DNA from: Hydrogenophaga sp.
GTDB lineage: Bacteria; Pseudomonadota; Gammaproteobacteria; Burkholderiales; Burkholderiaceae_C
DNA: 64,000 nucleotides
Assembly: GCF_026125785.1 (NCBI RefSeq)
Contig: NZ_JAHCKL010000005.1
Span: 1-64,000 of the forward strand
Direction: 5' to 3'
Translations under genes and position numbers: made by a program
Notes under the pieces: generated by a model
Seen by the model: the letters and a program-made list of their open reading frames with translations, nothing else
Database searches by the model: none
Told to the model about the DNA's origin: nothing
Shown: in pieces, positions 5,760 to 48,918 of the stretch
Numbering within the stretch: the stretch's first letter is position 1
Layout of the letters: each line of letters opens with the position of its first letter

Positions 5760-7346
5760 TCAGGCCATGGCCAGGGAGCCCCGGCGCTCCAGGCGGAAGA
5801 TGCGCACCGCCTCATTCATGACCTTGGCCTGGGCCTGCAACGAGGCCGCTGCCGCGGCCAGCTCTTCGACCATCGCGGAGTTCTGCTGCGTGACCGAATC
5901 GAGCTGGCCGACCGCCTGGTTGATCTGGGCCAGGCCCATGGCCTGTTCCTGCGTGGCGCCGGTGATCTCGGCGATCAAGCCGTTGACCTGTTCGACCGCC
6001 CCCACCACCTCGGACATGGTCTTGCCCGCGCTGTGCACCAGCTCACTGCCGGCGGCCACCTGGCCGGCCGACTCGTCGATGAGCTGCTTGATCTCGCGCG
6101 CCGCGGTCAAGGTGCGCTGCGCCAGGCTGCGCACCTCGCCGGCCACCACCGCGAAGCCTCGGCCTTGCTCACCCGCGCGCGCCGCCTCCACGGCCGCGTT
6201 GAGCGCGAGGATGTTGGTCTGGAACGCAATGCCGTCGATGACGCCGATGATCTCGCCGATGCGGCCGGACGATTGGCTGATGCCGTCCATGGTGGCGATC
6301 ACCTCACCCATGGCCCGGTTGCCCTGGCGCGCGATCGCGGCGGAGCGCTCGGACAGGCGCGAGGCTTCGCGCGAGGAGTTGGCACTTTGCTGCACCGTGC
6401 TGCTGAGTTCCTCCATCGAAGCCGCTGTCTCCTGCAGGCTGCTGGCCTGTGATTCGGTGCGGGCAGAGAGGTCCTGGTTGCCGCTGGCGATCTCGCTGGA
6501 GGCCACCTGCACGCCTTCCACCTCATGGCGCACGTCGGACACCACCGCCTGCAGGTTCACGTTGAGCTGGTTGAGCGCGCGGGCCAGTTCGCCGAACTCG
6601 CCGCCCGCAGCGCCTTCGTAGCGCGCGCACAGGTCGCCGGCCGCCATGCGGTTGGCGAACCCCACGGCACGGCCCAGTGAGCCCAGCACCTGGGTGCGCA
6701 GCCACCACGCGCCGGCGGCCGCGAAGGCGAGTACAGCCACCGCAGCGGCGACGTGGATGGAGAGGCCCCGCGGCGCGGCCCACTCGCCCACCGCGAGCCC
6801 GGCAATGGCCACGGCCGTGGAGGCCAGGCCGATGCGGCCGGCCAGGTTGAGCTGAGCCATGCGGCGCAACCGGCCGGCCAGGCCCGCGCGCTCCACCTGT
6901 CCACGGTGCAGCACGGTGCGCAGGCGACCCTGCTCCTGCTCGCCGCGCATGCACGCATACAAGGCCTCCGCCTGCTGGACTTGCTCGCGCGTCGGCTTGG
7001 TGCGCACCGACATGTAGCCCACGGTCTGGCCACCTTCGACCACGGGGGTGGCGTTGGCCACCACCCAGTAGTGGTCGCCGTTCTTGCGCCGGTTCTTCAC
7101 CAGTGCCGACCAGGGCGAACCGCTGGCCAGCGTGGCCCACATGTCGCGGAAGGCCTCGGCCGGCATGTCGGGGTGTCGCACCAGGTTGTGGGGTTGGCCG
7201 ATCAGCTCCTCGCGTGAGAAACCGCTGACGGCGACGAACGCCGGATTGCAGTAGGTGATGCGGCTTTGCAGGTCGGTCGTGGAGACCAGGGTGACGCCAT
7301 CAGGGATGACGAACTCTTGCTGTGAAACGGGCAGGTTGCTGCGCAT
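5760..7346 (-). CDS. Aer-like methyl-accepting chemotaxis protein with PAS domain
   Basis: 528-residue chemoreceptor. N-terminal PAS domain (about 10-115) carries the Aer hallmark GQPHNLVRHPDMP followed by EAFRDMW, expected to bind FAD and report redox or oxygen. Two membrane helices close together (about 170-188 and 197-215) leave only a tiny periplasmic loop, as in Aer. A HAMP-like segment follows (about 222-280), then the signalling domain with hairpin tip (EQGRGFAVVAGEVRSLAQR) that contacts CheA/CheW. The C-terminus ends without a CheR/CheB-tethering pentapeptide. The start at 7346 gives the family N-terminus. A candidate FNR/Anr box lies 145 bp upstream on this strand (7491-7504), which would fit oxygen-dependent expression of an aerotaxis receptor. 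Confidence 0.9.
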   Translation of the reverse strand: MRSNLPVSQQEFVIPDGVTLVSTTDLQSRITYCNPAFVAVSGFSREELIGQPHNLVRHPDMPAEAFRDMWATLASGSPWSALVKNRRKNGDHYWVVANATPVVEGGQTVGYMSVRTKPTREQVQQAEALYACMRGEQEQGRLRTVLHRGQVERAGLAGRLRRMAQLNLAGRIGLASTAVAIAGLAVGEWAAPRGLSIHVAAAVAVLAFAAAGAWWLRTQVLGSLGRAVGFANRMAAGDLCARYEGAAGGEFGELARALNQLNVNLQAVVSDVRHEVEGVQVASSEIASGNQDLSARTESQASSLQETAASMEELSSTVQQSANSSREASRLSERSAAIARQGNRAMGEVIATMDGISQSSGRIGEIIGVIDGIAFQTNILALNAAVEAARAGEQGRGFAVVAGEVRSLAQRTLTAAREIKQLIDESAGQVAAGSELVHSAGKTMSEVVGAVEQVNGLIAEITGATQEQAMGLAQINQAVGQLDSVTQQNSAMVEELAAAAASLQAQAKVMNEAVRIFRLERRGSLAMA

Positions 7347-44106: not shown

Positions 44107-44216
44107 GCGCCATTCTATTGATCCCGCGCCGCATCGGGTTCCCGTGGTTTGGCCCCCTGCAGGGTTTCGGCTATCGTGGCGTGCCCAGGCCGTGGAGGCA
44201 GGAAGGACCCCAAGCG

Positions 44217-45464
44217 ATGAGCAGCAGCGACAACCCGGACACCATGCCCAGCGAAGAACCCACGCGCTGGGAAATCACGCAGACGGAGGACGTGTTCCTG
44301 CCCTCGGTGCGGGTGCAACTGGGCTGGATGGACGTGCAGGCGGCCGTGGAGCGCGGGGCCATTCTGCCCTCGGAAGCGCATGCGCTGTGGGCCTCCTGGG
44401 CCTCGCCCGGCAGCCCTCTGCGTGTATCGGCTCCCACCATGGGCCTGGACACCGAACCCCAGCCTCTGGAGACTGCTTTGGCGGTCCCGGTGGCGCCCGC
44501 TTCTCAGGCGCGGCATGTCGGACCGGTGTTCTCGTTCACCAACACGCTGTACTACTTCGGCGGCATGCTGGCCATCGGTGCCATGACGCTGTTCATGAAC
44601 CTGGGCTGGGAACTGTTCGGTGCCTGGGGCGTGTTCGCCCTGGCCCTTGGCTACCTCGTGGGGGCGCTGTCGGTGGCGGGCCATCTGCTGCGGCGCGACC
44701 TGCGCACGCCCGCCGGCATTCTGGCCACGCTGGCGGTCTGCCTGGTGCCGCTGGCCGTGTGGGCTTTCCAGTCGGGCATCGGCCTGTGGCCCGAAGGCGG
44801 CCCGGACAACTACCGCGACTACCACCGCTACATCGATTGGCGCTGGCTCACCCTCGAACTGGCCACCCTGGCCGCGGCCGTCGTGATGCTGTGGCGCTAC
44901 AAGCTGCCCTTCATGGTGATGCCGGTCGCGGTCACGCTGTGGTACCTGAACATGGACCTGGCGCACATGCTGATGCAGAAGGACGGCTACGACTGGCCTT
45001 TCACCCGCAAGGTATCGCTGGTGTTCGGCCTGGCCACCTGCGCCGTGGCGATGTGGGTGGATCTGCGCACCCGCCGCGCCACCGAGGCCGAGGACCGGCA
45101 GGACTTTGCCTTCTGGCTCTACATCTTCGGCGCCATCATGTTCTGGGGAGGGCTGAGCCTGAGCAACAGCAACTCCGAACTCAACAAGTTGCTCTACGCC
45201 TTGCTCAACGTGGGCCTGGTCTTCCTCGGCGCGGCCATAGGCCGGCGCATCTTCACCGTGCTCGGCGCCCTGGGCGTGGCCGGCTACTTGGGGTACCTGG
45301 CCTACCGCGTGTTCGAAGACAGTCTGCTGTTTCCCTTCGCGCTGAGCCTGCTGGGCCTGGGCGTGGTGGCGCTGGGCATCTGGTGGCAGCGCAACGAAAC
45401 GGCCATCCACGCCCGGCTCGTGAACTGGCTGCCCGCCGCGCTCAAACCTCTCGCATCGGGCTGA
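44217..45464 (+). CDS. DUF2157-like multispanning membrane protein
   Basis: 415 residues: a cytosolic N-terminal segment with WMDVQAAVERGAILPSEAHALWASW (DUF2157-like helix) and about ten predicted membrane helices (FFGGMLAIGAMTLFMNLGWEL onward). Function unknown. The start ATG 44217 has GGAAGGA at about 9 nt. Divergent from glnS (110 bp). Its end is immediately followed by the tandem-repeat locus. Confidence 0.7.
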   Translation: MSSSDNPDTMPSEEPTRWEITQTEDVFLPSVRVQLGWMDVQAAVERGAILPSEAHALWASWASPGSPLRVSAPTMGLDTEPQPLETALAVPVAPASQARHVGPVFSFTNTLYYFGGMLAIGAMTLFMNLGWELFGAWGVFALALGYLVGALSVAGHLLRRDLRTPAGILATLAVCLVPLAVWAFQSGIGLWPEGGPDNYRDYHRYIDWRWLTLELATLAAAVVMLWRYKLPFMVMPVAVTLWYLNMDLAHMLMQKDGYDWPFTRKVSLVFGLATCAVAMWVDLRTRRATEAEDRQDFAFWLYIFGAIMFWGGLSLSNSNSELNKLLYALLNVGLVFLGAAIGRRIFTVLGALGVAGYLGYLAYRVFEDSLLFPFALSLLGLGVVALGIWWQRNETAIHARLVNWLPAALKPLASG

Positions 45465-45470
45465 GCGAGC

Positions 45471-45554
45471 TTCCGTTTGGGCATAGCCAGCTTCCGTTTG
45501 GGCAGAGCTAACTTCCGCCCGGGCAGAGCCAGCTTCCGTTTGGGCAGAGCTAAC
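45471..45554. repeat. 21-bp tandem repeat array
   Basis: Four complete 21-bp units (45471-45491, 45492-45512, 45513-45533, 45534-45554), each beginning TTCCGTTTGGGC or a one- to three-base variant and ending in AGC or AAC. A fifth, partial copy begins at 45555 and runs into the left arm of the extragenic palindrome. The consensus resembles the start of that arm, as if amplified from it. Confidence 0.85.
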
Positions 45555-45558
45555 TTCC

Positions 45559-45625
45559 GTTCGGGCTGAGCCTGTCGAAGCCTTGCCCGCGCATTGGCGG
45601 GCCCTTCGACAGGCTCAGGGCGAAC
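45559..45625. repeat. Extragenic palindrome with inner hairpin
   Basis: Inverted repeat of 22-bp arms (45559-45580 and 45604-45625; core CTGAGCCTGTCGAAG), which pair with two adjacent mismatches. The 23-bp loop contains a second perfect hairpin GCCCGC / GCGGGC (45585-45602). The arm sequence is of a type that I recall as a common dispersed intergenic element in Comamonadaceae and Xanthomonadaceae; that recollection is not checked here. Its two flanks carry unrelated-length tandem arrays. Confidence 0.8.
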
Positions 45626-45753
45626 GGACCAGGGCGAACGGACCAGGGCGAACGGACCAGGGCGAACGGACCAGGGCGAACGGACCAGGGCGAACGGACC
45701 AGGGCGAACGGACCGGGGCGAACGGACCGGGGCGAACGGACCAGGGCGAACGG
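45617..45753. repeat. 14-bp tandem repeat array
   Basis: Nine full head-to-tail copies of AGGGCGAACGGACC (copies 8 and 9 begin GGGGCG) plus an 11-bp partial at 45743-45753. The first copy includes the last 9 bases of the palindrome's right arm, so the array appears to have grown from it. Nine spacer-free copies rule out CRISPR. It ends 5 bp before the stop of the choice-of-anchor I gene. 14 is not a multiple of 3, so no coding role is expected. Confidence 0.9.
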
Positions 45754-45758
45754 TGGGT

Positions 45759-47642
45759 TCAGTACCGCAGGTTCAGTTGCAGCACCGCCGTGGTGCCGCT
45801 GACCTCGTTGCCCACGACCAGCAGGGGCTTGCCGTTGGGCGAATCCTTGGCCGGGATGAACACCAGGCCCTCGGGGCCGAGATCACCCGCGGTGGCCAGG
45901 TCGGGCGGGTTGGTCAGCCACTCGTCGCGGGTGTTCAGGTAGTCCATGAACACGGGTGACGCGGGGTTGCTGATGTCGTACACCAGCACGCCGCCCATGC
46001 GCTCCAGGCCGATGAAGGCAAAGGTCTTGTCTCCGATCTTGCCGAGTGCCAGGCCTTCGGGTTCGGGGCCTTTGGCGTCGCTGCGGCTGTCCTTGGCGTT
46101 GCCCTCGTCGTGTCCGGAGTTGAAGAAGTCGGCGCAGGGAATGCTGCGGTCCCGGCCCAGCTTGCAGTCCGCGCTGGCCAGGAACTTCTCGATAGCGGCT
46201 CCCGAGTCCCACACCAGCGCACCGCTGGCATTCCAGATGCTGAAGGAGCGCGCGCCGTAGGCGTAGAGCTGGTCGTACATGAGCCGGTTGCCGGCGGGAT
46301 CCTGCGCACCGGCGGCATTGAACATCATGGGTGAGCCGTCGGGGTTGGTGCGGTAGCCCATGGTCCAGCTGATGTTCAGGCGGCCCAGCGCGGCGTCGGC
46401 GCGGCATCCCGCGGGGTCGCCGGCGATGGCGCCGCAGTAGCCGAAGGTGGCCGGATCGAGCAGGCCACCGGCGGCCATGGCATTGAGCTGGGGTGGCAGA
46501 TCGTCGCCCGCACGGGAGGCCCAGCCGTTCTTGTTGACCAGGTGCTTGACGCGGAACTCTTCCACGAAACCCTTGGTGGCATCGCCGCCCCAGTAGGCCG
46601 CGTTGTCTTCGCCCCAGGCACGGGCGTCGCCTTCGTTGGCCGTGACCAGGTAGGTCTGGCCGCCCACGGTGTAGGAGGCCATGGCATCGGGCTGGTACAT
46701 GCCCCGCACGCCAGGCCAGGTCCGGATGTTGATGGTCTTGCCATCGGTGTCCGAGGCGTCGAGTTCGTTGCCCGCCACGCCATGGTCCTTGGTGCCCAGC
46801 GGCAGGATGTCGGTGACCGTGGCGCTGGCGATATCGACCTTGGCGAGTGCGTTGTTCTCCTGCAGGGTCACCCAGGCGGTGGCGCCGTCGGCGGAGACGG
46901 TGATGTATTCGGGTTCAAGGTCTTGCGCCACGCTGGCGCCGGGGCCATAGATGCGCACGCCTGCGGCGCGCAAGGCAGCCGCCTGCCCATTGAATGCGGC
47001 AAAGCCGGCGGTGCGCACCACCGGCGCGGCGAGGTTGCGCACGTCGATCACGCTCACGCTGCCCTCGGGGTCGATCTGGTAGTCGTCGCTGGGTTCTCCC
47101 TCGTTGGCCACCAGCACCGTCTTGCCGTCAGGCGTGAAGGTCACCATGTCGGGCAGCGCGCCGACGGTCACGGCGCTGATGAAGGACAGGTCGCTGGCGC
47201 GGTACAGCGCCATGCGCCCCGGATCGGTCTTGACCGGTGCCTGGATGGCCACGGCCACGATGCCATCGTGCACCGCCACGCTGTTGATCTCCGCGCCGGC
47301 GAGCACCGCGGTGGCATCGAGCACGCTGACCTTCACCGGGTGGGCGGGGTTGGAGAGGTCGAGCACGTCGACCGCGCCCAGTTGGGCATTCACCACGAAG
47401 AGCCGCTTGCTCGCGGCGTCGTAGGCGGGGATTTCAGCCGCGCTCACGCCGAACTGGCCGGTGCTGAAGCCGCCGATCTTTTCCAGCGTGAGGCCAACGG
47501 GCGTGGCCTCCGGGGTCGGGGCCGGCGTGGTGGGGTCGGGGGTGGGTGTGGGCGCGCTGTCGCTGCCACCGCCGCAGGCGGCGAGCACGGCAAGCATGAC
47601 AAGGGAGGCGGAGAACAGGCGCAGTCGGATGGGTGGTCTCAT
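45759..47642 (-). CDS. Choice-of-anchor I lipoprotein (beta-propeller)
   Basis: 627-residue exported protein: lipoprotein signal ending LAVLAACGGG, a Pro/Thr-rich tether (about 30-50), then a beta-propeller of the choice-of-anchor I family with repeated LDLSNPAHPVKV and YDISNPASPVFMDY type strands, VTANEGDARAWGED, and GPEPEGLALGKIG. These proteins resemble secreted phosphatase- or esterase-like propellers, but no activity is proven. Expected location: outer-membrane-tethered or cell surface. ATG 47642. The 14-bp array begins 5 bp after its stop, so the mRNA end runs into repeat DNA. Confidence 0.85.
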   Translation of the reverse strand: MRPPIRLRLFSASLVMLAVLAACGGGSDSAPTPTPDPTTPAPTPEATPVGLTLEKIGGFSTGQFGVSAAEIPAYDAASKRLFVVNAQLGAVDVLDLSNPAHPVKVSVLDATAVLAGAEINSVAVHDGIVAVAIQAPVKTDPGRMALYRASDLSFISAVTVGALPDMVTFTPDGKTVLVANEGEPSDDYQIDPEGSVSVIDVRNLAAPVVRTAGFAAFNGQAAALRAAGVRIYGPGASVAQDLEPEYITVSADGATAWVTLQENNALAKVDIASATVTDILPLGTKDHGVAGNELDASDTDGKTINIRTWPGVRGMYQPDAMASYTVGGQTYLVTANEGDARAWGEDNAAYWGGDATKGFVEEFRVKHLVNKNGWASRAGDDLPPQLNAMAAGGLLDPATFGYCGAIAGDPAGCRADAALGRLNISWTMGYRTNPDGSPMMFNAAGAQDPAGNRLMYDQLYAYGARSFSIWNASGALVWDSGAAIEKFLASADCKLGRDRSIPCADFFNSGHDEGNAKDSRSDAKGPEPEGLALGKIGDKTFAFIGLERMGGVLVYDISNPASPVFMDYLNTRDEWLTNPPDLATAGDLGPEGLVFIPAKDSPNGKPLLVVGNEVSGTTAVLQLNLRY

Positions 47643-47740
47643 GGGGTTCGACGGTCGGGGGAGAATGGAAACCCCCGGTTGTATGAGCCCGATGTGACGT
47701 TGTCGTGACCCGTGCAGGTCGTTCCGATGACGCTGGGGCG

Positions 47741-48498: not shown

Positions 48499-48918
48499 AT
48501 GAACACCCAGACCTTCCAAACCCCCTGGAGCCGGACGTCCGCCTGGGCCCGTGGCTTGAGCATCGCGGCGCTGGCCGCTGGTGCCTGGGCCTTGTCCACC
48601 GTGGGCTCCCAGGCCCATGCCCGCAGCGACGTGTACTGGTCCATCGGCGTGAACTCTCCGGGCGTGGCCGTGGGCGTGTCCAACGCACCGCCGGTCTACT
48701 ATGCGCCGCCACCCGTGTATGTGGCGCCGCGTCCGGTGTATGTCGCACCCCGTCCCGTCTATTACGCGCCGCCACCGGTCTACTACGCACCGCCGCCGGT
48801 GTACTACGCGCCGCGCCCGGTGGTGGTGGCGCCGCGTCCCGTGTACGGCCCCGGCTGGGGTTACGGGCCGCGCTGGGATGACCGCCGTGGTCACCGCCAT
48901 CGCCATGGCCACCGCTGA
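48499..48918 (+). CDS. Exported Tyr/Pro-rich repeat protein
   Basis: 139 residues. Signal peptide (about 15-41, cleavage after AHA), then SDVYWSIGVNSPGVAVGVSNA, a repeat zone of about 50 residues built from 8-mers such as PPPVYYAP, RPVYVAP and RPVVVAPR, and a His/Arg-rich tail (DDRRGHRHRHGHR). Similar exported proteins of unknown function are common in betaproteobacteria. It could be an envelope or surface component. GGAG at about 9 nt from the ATG. Confidence 0.7.
   Translation: MNTQTFQTPWSRTSAWARGLSIAALAAGAWALSTVGSQAHARSDVYWSIGVNSPGVAVGVSNAPPVYYAPPPVYVAPRPVYVAPRPVYYAPPPVYYAPPPVYYAPRPVVVAPRPVYGPGWGYGPRWDDRRGHRHRHGHR

Follow-up and report, generated by a model that had tools for sequence, protein, structure and literature searches.

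REP-like hairpin pairs and the tandem arrays that begin at their arms in Hydrogenophaga and related genomes

Two unlike tandem arrays flank a palindrome between the 3' ends of two genes in a Hydrogenophaga sp. genome (NCBI RefSeq assembly GCF_026125785.1), which raises the question of whether palindrome and arrays belong together and, if so, how the arrays were formed. The window, i.e., the whole stretch of DNA analysed, comprises 64,000 nucleotides (positions 1 to 64,000 of contig NZ_JAHCKL010000005.1). At the locus (about 45458-45758), two REP-like hairpins stand head to head (HH), each with a tandem array on its outer side, and the 294 bp between the stop codons of gene A (45462-45464, plus strand) and gene B (45759-45761, minus strand) hold the palindrome and both arrays. 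Gene A (44118-45464, plus strand; start codon provisional) had no Pfam match at E ≤ 0.001, and its 3' end abuts the left array, while gene B (45759-47648, minus strand; start approximate) encodes a choice-of-anchor I domain protein (PF22494, E 1.5e-112) and its stop codon lies 5 nt from the right array. An earlier note on this DNA had called the gene pair divergent or convergent and had placed the structure 5 bp from a stop codon; the pair is convergent, so that the first of these two options falls away, and the distance is correct for the stop codon of gene B. A search of positions 45300-45900 against Rfam gave five matches at E ≤ 1, all far under the gathering scores. Farther along the window, at 48691-48845, an ORF contains internal 21/42-bp repeats encoding PVYYAPP-like peptide repeats.

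The left arm, of the CC type (45556-45580, minus strand), reads TTCGACAGGCTCAGCCCGAACGG on the minus strand at 45557-45579, and the right arm, of the GG type (45604-45628, plus strand), reads TTCGACAGGCTCAGGGCGAACGG at 45605-45627. Between the two heads lies a spacer (45581-45603) with an inner hairpin inside. The arms are 25 nt each, 23 nt apart and 92% rather than 100% complementary because the CC and GG stem types differ, which leaves a GG/GG mismatch in the long stem. Folded as single-stranded DNA, the whole palindrome reached -33.3 kcal/mol (z -7.95), including the inner hairpin, and none of 200 shuffles was as good. The single arms folded only weakly when taken alone (-3.8 and -2.8 kcal/mol, z about 0), and the own short stem of the left arm has one mismatch (AGGC/GCCC).

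The left array (45458-45554, minus strand), detected with TRF and as a direct repeat family, is made of degenerate 21-bp units, each a half-arm foot plus a 7-nt spacer, and runs outward to the stop codon of gene A. TRF reported a period of 21 with 5.5 copies and 79% matches at 45458-45572, a span that includes the arm, and four to five degenerate units lie outside it. The right array (45616-45753, plus strand) is composed of the foot of the arm and nine extra, nearly identical 14-bp units, CAGGGCGAACGGAC (TRF: period 14, 9.9 copies, 98% matches); its 28-base pattern was found at no other place in the same genome at up to 3 mismatches, all 9 overlapping places being at the locus. The copy numbers of both arrays are provisional as they were taken from a 46-contig assembly. 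Both arrays begin in register with the arm ends. TRF, an inverted-repeat search and folding together bear out the earlier description and coordinates of a palindrome with an inner hairpin and two unlike flanking arrays. The left array reaches, and by similarity runs across, the stop codon of gene A (GGGCTGAGC, 45458-45466). Six relatives with an empty site (L011, L012, L015, L312, L313 and L328) already have GGCTGA or GGGCTGA at this stop codon, so the stop-codon part of the likeness, and with it that of the outermost partial unit, may be older than the insertion.

The hairpin arm is a dispersed repeat. The right arm was found at 112 places in its own 4.17-Mb genome at up to 3 mismatches, and the reversed control at none. 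In 115 arms read with their flanks at up to 5 mismatches, the design is a stem of four variable bases plus T/A, a loop TCGACARGCTC and a tail GAACGG, the stem being a 5-bp covarying NNNNT/ANNNN helix and the tail conserved and unpaired. All four variable stem pairs are formed in 176 of the 253 arms from this and other genomes, with 8 distinct perfect stems, and of the middle two pairs 1.92 are paired on average as against 0.905 after shuffling (maximum of 1000 shuffles: 1.079), arms being treated regardless of kinship. This covariation argues that the arm evolves as a hairpin, despite the weak fold of single arms and the mismatch in the left-arm stem of the window. A variant loop, TTCGATACCTCAG, occurs in some genomes (G045, G083 and G099), and there too next to arrays (L186, L190, L203, L247-L251, L259 and L270). 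The flanks analysed in the own genome contain 30 HH pairs with 14-37 nt between the arms, 20 of them at 26 or 29 nt, and the palindrome of the window is one such pair, with the CC-type arm on the left and the GG-type arm on the right. The earlier note knew no name for the structure; its core, an HH REP-like dimer, is nevertheless an object of a known kind.

The arrays likewise proved to be a property of the repeat. We defined the foot as CTCAGnnCGAACGG, the 14-nt 3' half of the arm, and walked outward from each arm in search of further feet in the same orientation, 12-28 nt apart and with up to 4 mismatches each. At least two extra feet were present outward of 43 of the 114 own-genome arms, and 28 of 47 own loci have such an arm; mononucleotide-shuffled flanks and first-order Markov flanks each gave 0.5%, and the inward walk found at least two extra feet in only 2 of 253 arms. 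The set of own-genome arms covers about 100 of the 112 places, neighbours in the same flanks and one array place; it is nearly complete and its members are partly non-independent, some loci being tandem duplications. Since 52 of the 114 arms are bare, i.e., have zero extra feet, the association of palindrome and array is frequent, not obligatory. The search for further copies that the earlier note had proposed therefore found arrays at many of them, and its alternative of a palindrome that is always bare describes those 52 arms and is contradicted by the 43. We thus discarded the idea that the locus is a singleton curiosity, the pattern recurring at other arms and in other genomes.

A standard arm stands at the start of 29 of 31 clusters of at least three feet in the own genome and of 37 of 42 in other genomes, where 70 loci had been chosen for holding the array pattern (L176 and L193, unrelated, and L181, L199, L200 and L202, overlapping or duplicates of own-genome loci, were left out). 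These counts, and the derivation of each unit from the abutting arm end, agree with the proposal that each array expanded outward from one end of the palindrome. A standard arm is missing from 27 of the 156 clusters of at least two feet. In 11 of these an arm with a variant loop lies at the first foot, and in another 11 an arm on the same strand stands at most 100 nt further inward; one is cut by the end of the stretch, and four (the two-foot clusters at L101, L129, L143 and L189) have none by pattern. Arrays standing elsewhere without the palindrome, which according to the earlier note would speak for chance, are accordingly rare (4 of 156). In 727,715 bp of loci from other bacteria, a mild control since low-GC genomes are included, 10 foot pairs were found, none of them touching an arm. 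L176 and L193 had been considered as arrays without a palindrome and were rejected as unrelated sequence; L176 (G197:C1:556324) is a tandem repeat of 12 bp, GGCCTGCCGTTC, which seems to have nothing to do with the REP. Tandem repeats not made of feet also occur near REP arms, namely at L131:587-646 (16 bp x 3.8, perfect) and at L103:240-428 (63 bp x 3.0).

The two arm types differ in how often they carry arrays. At least two extra feet were found at 36 of 61 CC-type arms as against 7 of 43 GG-type arms (Fisher p=1.6e-5). Because arrays are so much rarer on GG-type arms, a pair with arrays on both arms, as in the window, is the less usual case, and it is the GG-side array that stands out.

The pattern is shared among genomes, though unevenly. 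The exact arm was found in 54 of 200 genomes of the family, patchily even within genera, and a two-foot pattern (at least one pair of feet 2-14 nt apart) in 20 of 200, and 19 of these 20 also have the exact arm. The match in the twentieth, G139, was rejected as a chance one in unrelated sequence, as was one place in G197. Fifteen of the 19 genomes with at least 20 arms show the two-foot pattern, and it is absent from the REP-rich genomes G005, G110, G116 and G187. With a stricter pattern, 4 of 398 genomes across the phylum were positive, one of them (G556) from another family of the order. Overall, the array pattern recurs in many genera.

The bases between the feet bear on where the arrays were made. 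In 45 arrays with 7-nt spacers, spacer identity is 0.76 within an array and 0.43 between loci, and since spacers are alike within an array and unlike between loci, the arrays arose where they stand. On the strand of the foot, the spacers are rich in G (0.54) and poor in C (0.08). It is hardly credible that mis-joined short reads, or chance, made the arrays: the genome is indeed a 46-contig assembly, but the spacers are locus-specific and the pattern is also present in the single-contig genomes G099 and G197 and in many separate assemblies. A mobile composite element, in which CC arm, array, tail and GG arm in tail-to-tail (TT) orientation disperse as one unit and of which the window would hold a truncated copy, would account for the 29 TT pairs of neighbouring arms counted in the flanks of the own genome, in many of which an array separates the arms, and for the spacer, tail and part of the flanks that L121, L124 and L138 share by eye, although these loci were unpaired by tail BLAST. 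We regard it as very unlikely, considering that spacers differ between most loci, that the arrays of the window are not closed by further arms, and that the same tail seems to be present in L129 and L134, with the array in one and not in the other (rough alignment; unpaired by tail BLAST).

Array growth can be followed where copies of the same element are compared. In TT-element copies, arms and tail stay alike and the arrays differ by unit-sized gaps: the copy at L125 has a 24-nt gap and is identical at 154 of 157 positions elsewhere, that at L120 has gaps of 36 and 19 nt plus 1-2-nt gaps, and that at L119 has gaps of 19 and 38 nt plus one of 35 nt, which is no simple multiple. Copies thus seem to differ mostly, not always, by whole units. 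These are copies within a genome; the relatives found at the gene A locus, only about 75-87% alike in gene A, are too distant for the comparison of copy numbers among strains.

The relatives are informative about the site itself. Both flanks of the gene A 3' end could be aligned in 14 of them (duplicates L307-L309 and L317 counted once), and 13 are without the element, 7 of these with 3-16 nt between the flanks. In the remaining one, L013 in genome G597, the element is present but its two arm types are swapped, and only towards gene B is there an array, with units of 20-21 bp. A single flank was available at 15 loci; the element was found at one of them, L331 in genome G618, where gene A is followed by another gene, and its GG arm bears an array of two 22-bp steps. 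The element is therefore present in three arrangements at the 3' end of gene A, and three configurations at one site speak for separate births of the arrays. In L013, at 7244-7300, a REP arm appears to supply the stop codon of gene A (CCC TGA GC), which would make the protein a few residues longer. In two Hydrogenophaga relatives (L010:6837-6956 and L014:7341-7503), a different GC-rich repeat, which contains CCGAGGGTCCGGCTCCGCCGGCCCCAGGTG, replaces the REP at the gene A 3' end, and this site seems open to several repeat families.

Considering these observations, we propose that each flanking array is a local tandem duplication, made by replication slippage and seeded at the outer foot of the adjacent arm, and that the palindrome is an HH dimer of a dispersed REP-like hairpin; we give this reading a probability of about 60%. 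The duplicated segment would be the 3' half-arm plus a few flanking bases, most often 7, giving units of about 21 bp, and in the right array of the window zero flanking bases would have been added, giving the 14-bp unit. When the replication fork passes, an arm would fold in the single strand, and the growing end would slip back by about one unit and copy it again; once two units are present, ordinary slippage or unequal exchange could add or remove units. Local, in-register, outward duplication with gain and loss of mostly whole units beside a hairpin fits slippage at the hairpin, and the palindrome itself seems to provoke local duplication of DNA. The evidence for slippage is wholly comparative, and it is from such comparisons that we infer slippage as the process, the hairpin as its trigger and the absence of a selected function. 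Some results run counter to parts of this scheme. Plain hairpin-triggered slippage does not predict the preference for CC over GG arms. Growth by new units next to the arm would leave a gradient along the array, and what was seen of it is weak (p=0.03 in the own genome, p=1.0 in the others, p=0.07 for both combined). The weak folds of single arms and the imperfect stem in the left arm of the window also count against it, as do the four REP-rich genomes without the two-foot pattern and the gaps in L119 and L120 that are not whole units. Microhomology at the junctions is slight and not locus-specific.

The length of the unit is the feature on which further readings can be built. The most frequent unit length within an array is 21 bp for 15 of the 43 own arrays and for 23 of the 50 from other genomes (range 14-27), 24 is the second commonest unit in the other genomes, and the 14-bp right unit of the window is an outlier. 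A scan for periods of 5-60, run outward from the foot, showed strong periodicity in 36 of the 114 own arms, 18 of them at 19-24, 17 at the multiples 38-44 and one at 55; a best period of 42 can also arise from three 14-bp units. Units divisible by three occur in 22 of 43 arrays of the own genome and in 36 of 50 from elsewhere, largely on account of the 21-bp units. A strict ruler set by hairpin length (21 = 5+11+5) was rejected: the one-base-shorter variant loop (TACC) predicts units of 20 and shows 21-24 (about ten arrays, by eye), and the peak at 21 persists where stems are imperfect. It is possible that the length of about 21 bp is set by a ruler of roughly two helical turns, by a binding-site function or by the geometry of a stalled end.

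If the foot were the site of a DNA-binding protein (REP-binding, or acting on the nucleoid or on topology), a spacing of about two turns could be kept because the copies cooperate, with slippage only supplying the variants. The peak at 21 is as such selected arrays would have it, as are the periods of 35 of the 36 strongly periodic own arms at 19-24 or 38-44 and the higher likeness of foot columns than of spacer columns between neighbouring units (0.875 vs 0.790, p=0.003), although this last contrast is biased as the units were found by their feet. On the other hand, the arrays lie beside an arm almost without exception, the 14-bp units of the window amount to one and a third turns, and 24 ranks second in the other genomes, so that we think selection for binding sites unlikely. 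A more speculative extension, which we also hold to be improbable, treats the arms as "satellite nurseries": some process in the cell, measuring off about two helical turns, would time and again copy the 3' half of a REP arm in the outward direction and favour one stem type over the other. Each genome would thereby make locus-specific arrays from the same dispersed seed, and these arrays might serve as multi-site platforms for a foot-binding protein.

Slippage is also to be weighed against an enzyme. In the earlier note, repeated cutting and copying at a hairpin end was suggested, and an enzyme that acts on hairpins (a RAYT-type Y1/HUH nuclease, or another) could nick the arm, copy the foot again and so build the array. 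Such an enzyme would suit the inner boundary of the unit, which lies inside the loop and is sharp and constant, with likeness extending at most 2 nt further; a stem that covaries while loop and tail are conserved is likewise to be expected if a protein recognises the structure. Nonetheless, an arm was found within about 1.5 kb at none of 30 inspected Y1 loci (30 of 36 listed, from 25 genomes; 20 of the 30 in REP-rich genomes; one cut short by its contig), and the REP-rich genomes G193 and G197 had no Y1 match at E ≤ 0.001. In the own genome the Y1 gene is flanked, by eye, by a different short repeat. These data leave the suggestion of cutting and copying unsupported, and we judge an enzymatic origin to be quite unlikely. 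The only Y1 transposase-like match of the own genome (L144:1320-2180, G000:C9) has short repeats of the AAATGGGG type on both sides, which do not resemble the REP.

Slippage seeded at the foot invites comparison with other tandem and dispersed repeats. Bacterial minisatellites or VNTRs are head-to-tail units that are gained and lost whole. The arrays described here differ from them in that nearly every array starts at, and draws its unit from, the foot of a dispersed hairpin.

As far as the parts of the sources available to us go, the element resembles the REP, BIME and REPIN repeats of E. coli, Pseudomonas and Stenotrophomonas in being a short hairpin repeat with more than 100 copies, close inverted HH and TT pairs and dimer clusters in tandem (PMC3733652, PMC3116915). 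The locus of the window is also REP-like in being extragenic, between two convergent 3' ends, and the inverted pairs with regular spacing (30 HH, 29 TT) are a BIME/REPIN trait. The GTAG or CGTC tetranucleotide next to the stem, which marks the GTAG and CGTC superfamilies of REPs, is absent, with a tail GAACGG / CCGTTC in its place, and a Y1 gene flanked by the same REP, a trait of RAYT-mobilised REPs, was found at none of the 30 inspected loci (about 1.5 kb). Published tandem clusters repeat whole REPs or REPINs with their flanks, in the accessible part of that account, whereas here the tandem unit is a half arm plus flank of about 21 bp (PMC3116915).

The beta-proteobacterial repeat element BRE, with a unit of 75-91 bp in Bordetella, Polaromonas, Acidovorax and Delftia, is likewise Betaproteobacterial, GC-rich and tandem with variable copy number, and, according to the portion of the report at hand, mostly intergenic (PMC3110155). 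In unit length, as described in that portion, it differs from the present repeat (PMC3110155). The CGTC REPs, including dRS3 of Neisseria, are described in the available text as mostly HH dimers, with heterodimers predominant in some families, and as being without a dedicated transposase (PMC3733652). The present element is like these in its HH dimers and in that no Y1 gene was found beside its arms at the inspected loci. It carries a tag other than CGTC, and half-arm arrays are not described for CGTC REPs in the same text (PMC3733652). A search of the open PMC literature, with subscription papers and supplements outside its scope, found no half-arm arrays, and the letters of the repeat itself gave nothing relevant there.

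Judged by its sequence, the element is organised like REP, BIME and REPIN repeats, lacks the GTAG/CGTC tag and the RAYT neighbour, and has its half-arm arrays as the new part, BRE being compared by description only. With it, the known REPs and BIMEs are joined by a REP-like family that apparently has no RAYT. The birth of arrays in bacteria is usually hard to see as the seed is lost, while in the present family the conserved hairpin arm, as the seed, is still found next to its array. With many loci and genera, arms lacking arrays to serve as controls, and copies one unit longer or shorter than each other, the birth of arrays, their unit length and the preference for one arm become testable in an environmental genus.
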